DNA of 64,000 nt from Desulfuromonadaceae bacterium. GTDB taxonomy: Bacteria; Desulfobacterota; Desulfuromonadia; Desulfuromonadales; Syntrophotaleaceae. The stretch spans positions 1 to 64,000 of the forward strand of contig SLLR01000061.1 of NCBI GenBank assembly GCA_007134025.1. The letters run 5' to 3'. The notes below the pieces were generated by a model, which worked only from the letters and a program-made list of their open reading frames with translations, made no database searches and was not told where the DNA came from. The translations under genes were made by a program, and so were the position numbers. Below are positions 715-47,823 of this stretch, one piece after another; the first letter of the stretch is position 1; every line of letters begins with the position of its first letter.

Positions 715-1347
715 CTAAACAAGCGTGAAGACGGCCATCTGGCTGGGGCTTCCCAGGTCGGGGTCGGCAGGGCCGATGTCGGTAAAGATCGCCCGATAAC
801 CGTTGCGGGCCGCCGCACCGCAAGCCCATTTGCGAAATTTGAAACGACTCCACTCAAAACGGTGATCGGCGTGGCGCAGGACTCCCGGCGCCAGACCGTA
901 AAGGGGGTTGTAGTCGGCGTTGGGGGTGGTGACAACGAGGATTTTGGGGCGGAAGTCGCAAAGGATGCTTTTTTCGACGACGGAGAGGCGGCCGGGCTCG
1001 ATGTGCTCGATGGTTTCCAGCAGTACTGCTCCCTGATACTCGGCAAAGTCAGACAGGGAGCAGGTGAAGGAAGCCAGCTGCAGGGCCAGGCGGCGATTCT
1101 CGCCAAGATGACCGGCGGCGGAAAGTAGCTGGTGCGCCGCCGAAAGGGCTTTCGGGGCGATGTCGATGCCGGTGATGCGGTTGAACAGTGGTTCCCGGGC
1201 CAGTCGAAGCAGCAGTTCTCCTCCACCACAGCCGAGGTCGAGAACGGTTTTTACGCCACCCTGGAGCAGCGCACGAACCACGCTCTCCAGTCGTTGTTCA
1301 TGCAGGGAAGTGGCCGTTTCGTCCCGCAGGTCGTCGTAGCGTTTCAT
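715..1347 (-). CDS. Solo Hen1-like 3'-terminal RNA ribose 2'-O-methyltransferase domain
   Basis: The 210-residue protein is a class I SAM methyltransferase: motif I is LDLGCGGGE (residues 36-44) and an acidic IDIAP follows at 61-65. It carries the features that mark the Hen1 family: E111, E114 and H115 in ETIEH, then TTPNADYN, and H162 within RHADHRFEW. In bacterial Hen1 these two Glu and two His bind the metal that positions the terminal ribose 2'-OH. Bacterial Hen1 is normally about 450-500 residues, with an N-terminal ligase-activating domain, and is encoded beside Pnkp. Here only the methyltransferase domain is present and no Pnkp or ligase gene is nearby. ATG at 1347 has GGGGA upstream. 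The family call is from motifs; RNA substrate and role are inferred. Confidence 0.75.
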   Translation of the reverse strand: MKRYDDLRDETATSLHEQRLESVVRALLQGGVKTVLDLGCGGGELLLRLAREPLFNRITGIDIAPKALSAAHQLLSAAGHLGENRRLALQLASFTCSLSDFAEYQGAVLLETIEHIEPGRLSVVEKSILCDFRPKILVVTTPNADYNPLYGLAPGVLRHADHRFEWSRFKFRKWACGAAARNGYRAIFTDIGPADPDLGSPSQMAVFTLV

Positions 1348-1393
1348 CGAAAAAAATCCCCTTGGACCTGACGGCTGTGCTGCTGCCGGAGCG

Positions 1394-8081: not shown

Positions 8082-9275
8082 ATGTTTGTGCCGTTTTTCT
8101 ACGCATTGAGGGACGCAGGGCTATCAGTCACACCCACTGCTTTTCTGCGGTTGCAGCGGGTGCTGACCATGGGCCTGATCGCCTCGCTGGAAGACTTTTA
8201 TACCATTGCCCGTTCCCTTTTGATTAAGAGCGAGCGGGATTTCGACCTTTACGATCAGGTATTCGCGAGTTGCTTTGAGGGGCTGGAGTTGCCCCCGGAT
8301 CAAGAGCCGGACCTGGCTGCCGGGATCCGCCAATTGCTCGAGGAGTGGCTGCGCGACCCGCAAGACCTGGCTGAGGCCCTGGGCCTGGATCCCGGACAGA
8401 TGGACCGACTTTCTCTGCAAGAGCTGGAACAGTATTTTCAGGATCGGCTGCGGGATCAGAAGGAAGCTCATCACCAGGGACGCAAGTGGATCGGCACCGG
8501 GGGCATCTCTCCCGTCGGCCATTCGGGCCGCAATCCCGCCGGCATGCGGGTCGGCGGGGCGTCTCGAGGCCGCACCGCGGTGAAGGTGGCCATGGAGCGC
8601 CGCTATCGGGAGTACGGCCGGGATGCGCCTCTGCGCCGGGCCGATTTTGGCGAAGCGTTGAAGCGGCTTCGGCTCCTGCGACCGGTCGGCCCCTGTGATC
8701 AGCTCAGCATGGAAAAAACTTTACGGGCCACCATGGACAATGGCGGTGCGATCGAAATCGTTTTCGAACGGCGCCTGGCAAACCGGCTCAAGGTGCTGTT
8801 GTTGATCGACAACGGCGGCTGGTCCATGGATACCTACGTCGAGACGGTAGAGCACCTGTTTCAGGAGGCTCGCAGCCATTTTCGCGAACTGGAAATCGGT
8901 TATTTCCACAACACCCTTTACCGGCGGGTGTGGCGGGATCCCCAGAGGAGCCGGCTGCCGGTCCCGGTGGAGGACCTGCTGGCCGGTGATCCGGAAACGC
9001 GGCTGATTGTAGTGGGTGACGCCAGCATGGCACCGGAGGAACTGCTCGGCACCGGCGGCAAGTTGCAGCGACGGCAGCTGCTGGATCGGCCGAGCATCGA
9101 GAGCTTCAGGTCTCTCGCCCGAACCTTTCACCACGGGGTCTGGCTCAATCCTGTGGCCCGCTCCCTGTGGCCGCAGAGTCAGACCATCGGCCTGCTGGCG
9201 GAAATTTTTCCCATGTATGAACTGACCTTGTGCGGTCTGGAAAAGGCCGTCGTCCACCTGACCGCCCGCCACTGA
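8082..9275 (+). CDS. VWA-domain protein, CoxE-like partner of MoxR
   Basis: The 397-residue cytosolic protein begins at ATG 8082; the frame is open further upstream, but that region overlaps moxR. The N-terminal half is helical and the C-terminal half is a VWA-like domain. The metal-site motif reads LLLIDNGGWSM, where classical VWA domains have DxSxS, so metal binding may be altered. A Gly/Arg-rich basic linker (residues 135-170) separates the halves. It should work with the MoxR ATPase just upstream as a chaperone pair. The client is unknown. Confidence 0.8.
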   Translation: MFVPFFYALRDAGLSVTPTAFLRLQRVLTMGLIASLEDFYTIARSLLIKSERDFDLYDQVFASCFEGLELPPDQEPDLAAGIRQLLEEWLRDPQDLAEALGLDPGQMDRLSLQELEQYFQDRLRDQKEAHHQGRKWIGTGGISPVGHSGRNPAGMRVGGASRGRTAVKVAMERRYREYGRDAPLRRADFGEALKRLRLLRPVGPCDQLSMEKTLRATMDNGGAIEIVFERRLANRLKVLLLIDNGGWSMDTYVETVEHLFQEARSHFRELEIGYFHNTLYRRVWRDPQRSRLPVPVEDLLAGDPETRLIVVGDASMAPEELLGTGGKLQRRQLLDRPSIESFRSLARTFHHGVWLNPVARSLWPQSQTIGLLAEIFPMYELTLCGLEKAVVHLTARH

Positions 9276-9349
9276 TCCGCTGGTTTCGCCCCCTCGGTGT
9301 TCGTGGAAGGAAGCCGTTGGCCAATCAGCAGCAGCAGAAAAGGAAAGAC

Positions 9350-9646
9350 TCAAAGGATGATCAGCGAATCCTGACTGCCGTAATCGTTGGGGATGTAGCC
9401 GTCCGCCTGGTCGTCGTTGTGCCAGTGGATGCCGTCCAGCAGGTAACGGAATCGGTAGGACTGCTCGGCAGGCAGGCACAGGGTGAGGCTGAACCCGCCC
9501 TTTTTCAGGGGTTTCATTGCTTTGGCCTGTTTTTGCCAATCGGTAAAATCGCCGCACAGCAGAGCGGTTTCGCCACCGGTTTCCGGTGGCAGGTTGAAGG
9601 TGACACGACAGCTTTTTCCGGTTTTGGAATAGTTTTTTTTCAGCAC
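9350..9646 (-). CDS. Stand-alone glycogen-binding domain (CBM48/AMPK1-like)
   Basis: The 98-residue protein is a single immunoglobulin-like carbohydrate-binding domain. Visible family features are VTFNLPPE, CGDFTDWQ (the WNxW-like ligand region), GGFSLTLCLP and YRFRYLLDGIHWHND. Domains of this kind bind alpha-glucans such as glycogen and usually sit on branching or debranching enzymes; alone they may target partners to glycogen. The start is GTG 9646, preceded by GGAGG at five bases. No glycogen enzyme is adjacent in this window. Confidence 0.82.
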   Translation of the reverse strand: MLKKNYSKTGKSCRVTFNLPPETGGETALLCGDFTDWQKQAKAMKPLKKGGFSLTLCLPAEQSYRFRYLLDGIHWHNDDQADGYIPNDYGSQDSLIIL

Positions 9647-46233: not shown

Positions 46234-47823
46234 GTGAGCAAGAATCATCGCAGGGAAGTCGACAGCCGACGCACCTTCGGCATTATCAGTCATCCCGACG
46301 CCGGCAAGACCACCTTGACGGAAAAGCTGCTGCTGTTCGGCGGGGCCATTCAGATGGCCGGCTCGGTCAAGGCCCGCAAGGCCTCGCGCCATGCCACCAG
46401 CGACTGGATGGCCATGGAGCAGGAGCGGGGCATTTCGGTCACCTCCTCGGTCATGAAATTCAATTATCGGGATTACGAGATCAATCTGCTGGACACTCCC
46501 GGCCATCAGGACTTTTCGGAAGATACCTACCGGGTGCTGACCGCCGTCGACAGCGCACTGATGGTGATCGACAGCGCCAAGGGGGTGGAAACCCAGACCC
46601 GCAAGCTGATGGAGGTCTGCCGGATGCGCAACACGCCGATCATGACTTTCATCAACAAGCTGGACCGGGAAGGGCTGGCGCCGCTGGATCTGCTGGCCGA
46701 CATCGAAGAGACTCTGCAGATTGAATGTGCTCCCCTGTCCTGGCCCATCGGCATGGGCAAGCGTTTCAAGGGAACTTATAATCTCTATCGAAAGCGTCTG
46801 TTGCTGTTCACTCCCGGCCAGGAAATTCGGCACCGGGATGCGATCGTGATTGAGGATCTGGCCGATCCCCGTCTCGATGAGCTACTTGGCGGCAGCCAGG
46901 CCGATGAATTGCGCGAAGACATCGAGCTGCTGGAGGGAGCGGCCAATCCCTTTGATCCCGAAGACTACCTCAAGGGCAATCAGACCCCGGTTTTTTTTGG
47001 CAGCGCCATCAACAACTTCGGCGTCGAGGAATTGCTGGATGCTTTTGTCGAGCAGGCCCCGGCGCCCCGTTCGGCCCAAACCGTCACCCGGGAGGTGTCA
47101 CCCTACGAAGAGGCGTTTTCCGGTTTTGTGTTCAAGATCCAGGCAAACATGGATCCCGCCCACCGGGACCGTATCGCCTTTCTGCGCATCTGTTCCGGAA
47201 CCTTTCGGCGGGGCATGAAAGTCCGCCATCACCGCATCGGTAAAGAGGTGACCCTGGCCAACGCCACCATTTTCATGGCTCAGGACCGCAGTCATGTGGA
47301 GGAAGCTTTTCCAGGGGATATTATCGGCCTGCACAACCACGGCACCATCAAGATCGGCGACACCTTCAGCGACAAAGAGCCCCTCAAGTTCATTGGCATT
47401 CCGAGCTTTGCTCCGGAGCACTTTCGGCGGGCGCGGCTGAGCAATCCCCTCAAGACCAAACAGCTGGAAAAGGGCCTCACCCAACTGGCCGAGGAGGGTG
47501 CAGTGCAGCTTTTTCGGCCCCTGATCAACAGCGACTATATTCTGGGCGCTGTGGGGGTGCTTCAGTTTGAGGTGATTTTATCCCGACTGAAGAACGAATA
47601 CGGGGTCGACGCTCTTTTTGAAGGGGTGGAATATGCCACGGCCCGCTGGGTGGAATGCGACGACGGCAAGAACCTCAAGGAATTCGAGAAGAAAAACCAG
47701 GCCAGCCTGGCCTGGGATTCGGAGGGCGGCCTGACCTTTCTCGCTTCCAGTGAATGGCGTCTCGGGCACACCATCGAGCAGTGGCCGCAGATCCGTTTCA
47801 ACAAGACCCGCGAGCAGCGTTAG
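46234..47823 (+). CDS. prfC: Peptide chain release factor 3
   Basis: The 529-residue GTPase equals E. coli RF3 in length. The G motifs are [19 protein letters not shown] and NKLDRE, and switch I lies in [22 protein letters not shown]3 releases RF1 and RF2 from the ribosome after termination. The GTG start at 46234 has AAGAGG upstream; the frame is open to 46033, but that part covers the promoter. It is monocistronic or read together with asnS. Confidence 0.94.

Follow-up and report, generated by a model that had tools for sequence, protein, structure and literature searches.

The stretch of DNA analysed (hereafter the window, 64,000 nucleotides from a Desulfuromonadaceae bacterium) encodes, on the minus strand at 715–1347, a 210 aa protein with an ATG start. 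The open reading frame, matches to TIGR04074 and PDB entries, a structural model (AlphaFold2/Foldseek) and dN/dS values predict a solo Hen1-type RNA 3'-terminal 2'-O-methyltransferase domain, referred to here as short Hen1. Reading of the sequence places a Shine-Dalgarno-like AAGGGGA (1357–1363, minus strand) 9 nt 5' of the start codon. This is the one Hen1 in the genome (2.25 Mb, 99% complete). An open-ended reading frame at 1–681, convergent with short Hen1 across a gap of 33 bp, is built of tandem ELW..DGT..GT..VKDI repeats and belongs to a repeat protein truncated where the window begins.

The minus-strand order is a sigma-70-like promoter (TTGACA-17-TATCTT, 1560–1532), a tRNA-Met(CAT) gene (1518–1442), an intrinsic terminator with a 13-bp stem and T tail (1433–1402) and then short Hen1, with the tRNA on the 5' side, 94 bp from the ATG of Hen1. 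Read by eye, the tRNA is initiator-like (unpaired C1–U72, GGG/CCC anticodon stem). The promoter is conserved in the sister species, and the terminator, which folds at −25.1 kcal/mol (z −7.2), keeps its pairing there via a paired C–G to T–A change. Since tRNA-fMet is served by a separate promoter and closed off by a strong terminator that is conserved, it forms a transcription unit apart from Hen1. The first-pass annotation, made from the sequence alone, had named an initiator tRNA as the neighbouring gene on the same strand and had suggested action on tRNA fragments as one possibility. The tRNA does adjoin, but upstream and separated by the terminator, and the functional tie was rejected given the separate promoter, the conserved terminator and an adjacency seen only in the window's genus; we judge the tRNA to lie outside the Hen1 system. 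A tmRNA gene is found 80 bp upstream of short Hen1 in Wenzhouxiangella (L040), hence RNA genes recur beside short Hen1, but only twice.

The NCBIfam model of bacterial Hen1 (TIGR04074) matched the window protein at 2.5e-59, only over model positions 259–461 of 462, and the score of 201 bits lies far under the curated cut-off of 340 bits. As the alignment is confined to these positions, the N-terminal, ligase-activating half of Hen1 is absent from the protein, which agrees with the first-pass annotation on both the domain present and the domain missing. The best PDB matches were the methyltransferase domains of bacterial Hen1 (3jwh, 6e-45; 3jwg, 2.5e-42), followed by human HENMT1 and plant HEN1. 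Three metal ligands (E111, E114 and H115) fall in the ETIEH of codons 111–115 (1003–1017, minus strand) and the fourth, H162 (codon at 862–864, minus strand), lies inside RHADHRFEW (residues 158–166), completing an E/E/H/H site exactly as had been claimed. These ligands are invariant in a 25-sequence alignment of short forms, and also across 33 short and 62 long sequences. Short forms furthermore keep the RH.DHRFEW, TTPN..YN and QM..F motifs as in repair Hen1. An AlphaFold2 model built with 17 aligned relatives as input reached a pLDDT of 90.6, and its best Foldseek match was 3jwg (E 2.3e-23). All of the top 12 matches were Hen1, HENMT1 or HEN1, with CtHen1, AvHen1, HENMT1 and HEN1 in the lead and other methyltransferases well behind. 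Structure prediction against bacterial Hen1, a check that had been proposed for this gene, thus gave CtHen1 and AvHen1 as nearest folds (target-normalised TM 0.89–0.92), with the Hen1 fold matched along the full length.

Compared with CtHen1 (3jwg) and AvHen1 (3jwh), the window protein shares the whole methyltransferase domain at about 38–41% identity, the metal site and the fold; it differs in the missing N-terminal domain, the absence of Pnkp from its genome, its place in a separate clade with ETIEH where the repair type has EVIEH, and a TIGR04074 score of 201 bits, well short of the 340-bit cut-off. The methyltransferase domain of bacterial Hen1 is a folded unit in isolation (PDB 3jwg–3jwj). 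Homology extends to the Hen1 of the Pnkp1-Rnl-Hen1 system of Capnocytophaga (4xrp; PMC4411300), which is more distant (54.9 bits) and has an Rnl-type ligase that the window's genome lacks. Animal HENMT1, likewise a small solo enzyme, and plant HEN1 (5wy0, 3htx) have the catalytic domain and metal ligands in common with short Hen1, together with ligase-free end methylation, predicted here; identity to them is about 30%, the window's genome has no Piwi partner, and HENMT1 lies on the long side of the tree.

Phylogeny of short against long Hen1, also proposed beforehand, resolved the short forms as a separate clade: in two trees a single fully supported branch (SH-aLRT 100; 100/100) parts them from the long forms. 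As no root is placed, the trees do not say which form is ancestral. Human HENMT1 grouped with the long forms, its own branch being long, and a closeness of the eukaryotic enzyme to short forms was not seen. Position 112, beside the metal ligands, is a clade mark, being T in 33 of 33 short and V in 62 of 62 long sequences; ET[IL]EH was kept in 14 further short-Hen1 records, a few of which are near-copies of loci already counted, and EVIEH in 12 further long ones. One exception (L182, genome G904, 8607–9365) is a short Hen1 with EVIEH on a long branch between the two groups, from a genome with no Pnkp; with it included, the support value of the short side falls to 81, and it is a candidate for a short form of independent origin.

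By sequence, the clade of the window protein spans Desulfuromonadales and alpha-, beta- and gammaproteobacteria, that is, two phyla. Short Hen1 was detected in 16 of 58 genomes in the search of relatives and, class-wide, in 20 of 244 genomes, one copy each, and there was no long Hen1 among the matches in those 244 genomes. Sampling of 398 Pseudomonadota yielded ten matches, half short and half long as judged by open frame. Carriers include Desulfuromonadales, Desulfuromusa, Rhodoferax, Azoarcus, Gallionella, Wenzhouxiangella, Chromohalobacter, Methylophaga, Reyranella and Parvibaculum, and from these relatives the window's genome probably falls in the order Desulfuromonadales. The gene of the sister species (G001) has 80% identity to that of the window, with a dN/dS of 0.25, and values for four other pairs were 0.07–0.15 (dS was saturated in a sixth pair). 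These low ratios indicate that short Hen1 is maintained under purifying selection. The single annotated record that was inspected, from a Comamonas plasmid, labels short Hen1 “methyltransferase domain-containing protein”; such genes are missed by annotation pipelines.

Our strongest result is the clean split of short and long Hen1 by their Pnkp partner. A genome-wide search found no Pnkp in the window's genome, where the sole weak match spans 80 model positions. TIGR04075 was run first against 36 entries for short-Hen1 genomes, with two long-Hen1 genomes as controls, then against a second set of 10 short and 12 long; two assemblies were counted twice (G137/G247 and G230/G251), leaving about 44 distinct short-Hen1 genomes. 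Pnkp exceeded the cut-off in none of these, versus 14 of 14 long-Hen1 genomes, and it directly adjoins Hen1 in all 12 long-Hen1 genomes of the second set. The absence of the partner that had been noted at this locus therefore extends to the whole genome and to every short-Hen1 genome searched, and this makes a role outside Pnkp/Hen1 repair, suggested at the outset, the best reading.

To our knowledge, the only role on record for bacterial Hen1 is methylation within ligase-coupled RNA repair. The short forms make up a conserved clade whose site is intact, and their occurrence without Pnkp in all of about 44 genomes implies a different use of RNA 3'-end methylation in bacteria; the scatter of this separate branch across many bacteria likewise suggests that its job is probably other than the known repair. 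We consider it probable that short Hen1 is an autonomous, metal-dependent RNA 3'-terminal ribose 2'-O-methyltransferase that works without Pnkp or ligase and is probably stress-related. All residues for Hen1 chemistry are kept in the protein and all of the ligase-activating part is missing, and catalysis on RNA 3' ends is what this pattern would predict. The enzyme would bind SAM in its Rossmann fold, hold a Mg or Mn ion with E111, E114, H115 and H162, and methylate the 2'-OH of the terminal nucleotide in RNAs ending in 2',3'-OH. In Pnkp/Hen1 repair, methylation falls between the phosphatase step and the ligase step, with the ligase turned on by the N-terminus of Hen1 (PMC4411300). For short Hen1, methylation would instead be the end of the path and leave a blocked RNA 3' end, since neither Pnkp nor ligase is involved; the consequence would be protection or blocking against 3' exonucleases, tailing and other 3'-end reactions, not repair with immunity. 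A survey in 2006 had just six bacterial relatives of HEN1 on its list and raised the function of the short forms as a question (PMC1397878), one on which this clade bears. In the openly searchable papers, no description of short Hen1 as a clade free of Pnkp turned up, and the clade may be noted elsewhere.

The invariant site residues do not decide the substrate, and a Hen1-descended methyltransferase that has moved to another substrate (a small molecule, an internal RNA site or the body of a tRNA) is an unlikely alternative. Small-molecule methyltransferases have the same fold as the Hen1 domain. The nearest relatives of the Hen1 catalytic domain are UbiG-type small-molecule enzymes (PMC1397878), the V to T change next to a metal ligand runs through the whole clade and could mean a shifted substrate, and the scattered neighbours of short Hen1 include tRNA and translation genes (mnmE, tgt, prfC). 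However, the retention of all four ligands and of the three motifs as in repair Hen1, and a full-length match to the Hen1 fold, argue against such a move.

Alternatively, short Hen1 could still be a repair enzyme for which the place of Pnkp is taken by a different kinase or ligase in trans, either RtcB or a ligase that escaped recognition. RtcB is encoded by the window's genome as well as by 50 of 58 relatives, and fragments with similarity to the phosphatase and kinase of Pnkp occur elsewhere in the genomes searched. The ends that RtcB seals carry a 2',3'-cyclic phosphate or a 3'-phosphate, and a 2'-O-methylated 3'-OH end is neither. Being nearly universal in the order, yet without a match in three short-Hen1 genomes (G015, G035 and G048), RtcB is uninformative and was dropped as a partner. 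T4-type RNA ligase (PF09414) was not found in the window's genome and was detected in just 2 of 42 short-Hen1 genomes. As the ligase-activating domain is also missing and the conserved neighbours are not ligases, we regard repair in trans as improbable.

A further proposal, modelled on the protection of small RNAs by eukaryotic HEN1, is that short Hen1 guards tRNA fragments or the guide RNAs of a prokaryotic Argonaute; it draws on the chemistry shared by homology with HENMT1/HEN1 and on the initiator tRNA adjoining in the window's genus. We consider it very improbable: no Piwi domain was found in the window's genome or in any of 42 short-Hen1 genomes, on which ground an Argonaute partner was rejected, HENMT1 groups with the long forms, and the tRNA is separately terminated and a neighbour in this genus only. 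Presence of the C-terminal half alone might also suggest a drifting remnant of a Pnkp-Hen1 operon after recent loss of Pnkp and the N-terminal half, but an old clade with its own signature in two phyla, its low dN/dS and the lack of any long Hen1 found in 244 genomes of the class make this scarcely credible, and it was rejected. A phage origin was likewise set aside, with a single weak phage match (to a polynucleotide kinase) and distant viral-contig matches (23–35% identity), as was a defence system, for which the defence library gave a weak generic match (35 bits to mad2, residues 24–80).

Returning to the autonomous 3'-end methyltransferase, a stress-related role linked to RNA and translation homeostasis is only weakly indicated, by the genes for RF3, DksA/TraR and UspA that adjoin short Hen1 in some relatives. 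Most short-Hen1 loci have no common neighbours, and no conserved short-Hen1 operon was found within Desulfuromonadales. On a Comamonas sp. C11 plasmid (L163) the order is SulP-UspA-hypothetical-DksA/TraR-short Hen1-Cfa-RF3-GGDEF-NMP kinase-NUDIX. Relatives of SulP, UspA, DksA/TraR or RF3 also lie near short Hen1 in Azoarcus (L042), Reyranella (L185), G736 (L181), Rhodobiaceae (L048), G1078 (L184, all four) and Desulfuromonadales (L029 and L028/L030). With the query locus excluded and the L028/L030 pair taken once, at least one of SulP, UspA, DksA and PrfC occurred at 7 of 37 short loci versus 1 of 82 controls (Fisher p = 0.001), the controls comprising 0 of 20 same-genome regions and 1 of 62 long-Hen1 loci (p = 0.045 versus same-genome controls alone). 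The query set was picked after the association had been seen, hence it is a lead and no proof. SulP is 70–80% identical across classes in these islands, which sometimes include Cfa, NMP kinase and NUDIX genes (L163, L184, L185, L042 and L029), and the sequences suggest that the SulP-UspA-DksA/TraR-RF3 island with short Hen1 moved by transfer. The window locus has none of these neighbours; its own prfC (46252–47817) is 45 kb from Hen1, hence the RF3 association does not hold locally. It is possible, though speculative, that many bacteria use repair-independent 3'-end 2'-O-methylation by short Hen1, tied to an RF3/DksA-TraR/UspA stress module, with the ends protecting or silencing RNAs (e.g. tRNA or mRNA) under translation stress.

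Several other gene arrangements were observed. In L030 (8991–9215) a prfC cut to 74 codons, with N- and C-terminal pieces joined, lies just before Hen1, representing a deletion or an assembly fault, whereas the sister locus L028 has full-length prfC. Four alphaproteobacterial loci (L183, L184, L185 and L115) have a RES-domain protein near short Hen1 (by Pfam match in L184 and by similarity in the others), preceded in L184 and L185 by a protein of ~215 aa with no Pfam match; RES proteins include NAD-degrading toxins. At L180 (1287–3931) short Hen1 adjoins an NAD-salvage-like cluster for NAPRTase, a macrodomain protein and a nicotinamidase-like protein. In three Methylophaga genomes (L056, L059 and L065) short Hen1 follows a gene read as mnmE by 3–18 bp, and in Desulfuromusa (L037) it lies 49 bp after a gene read as tgt.
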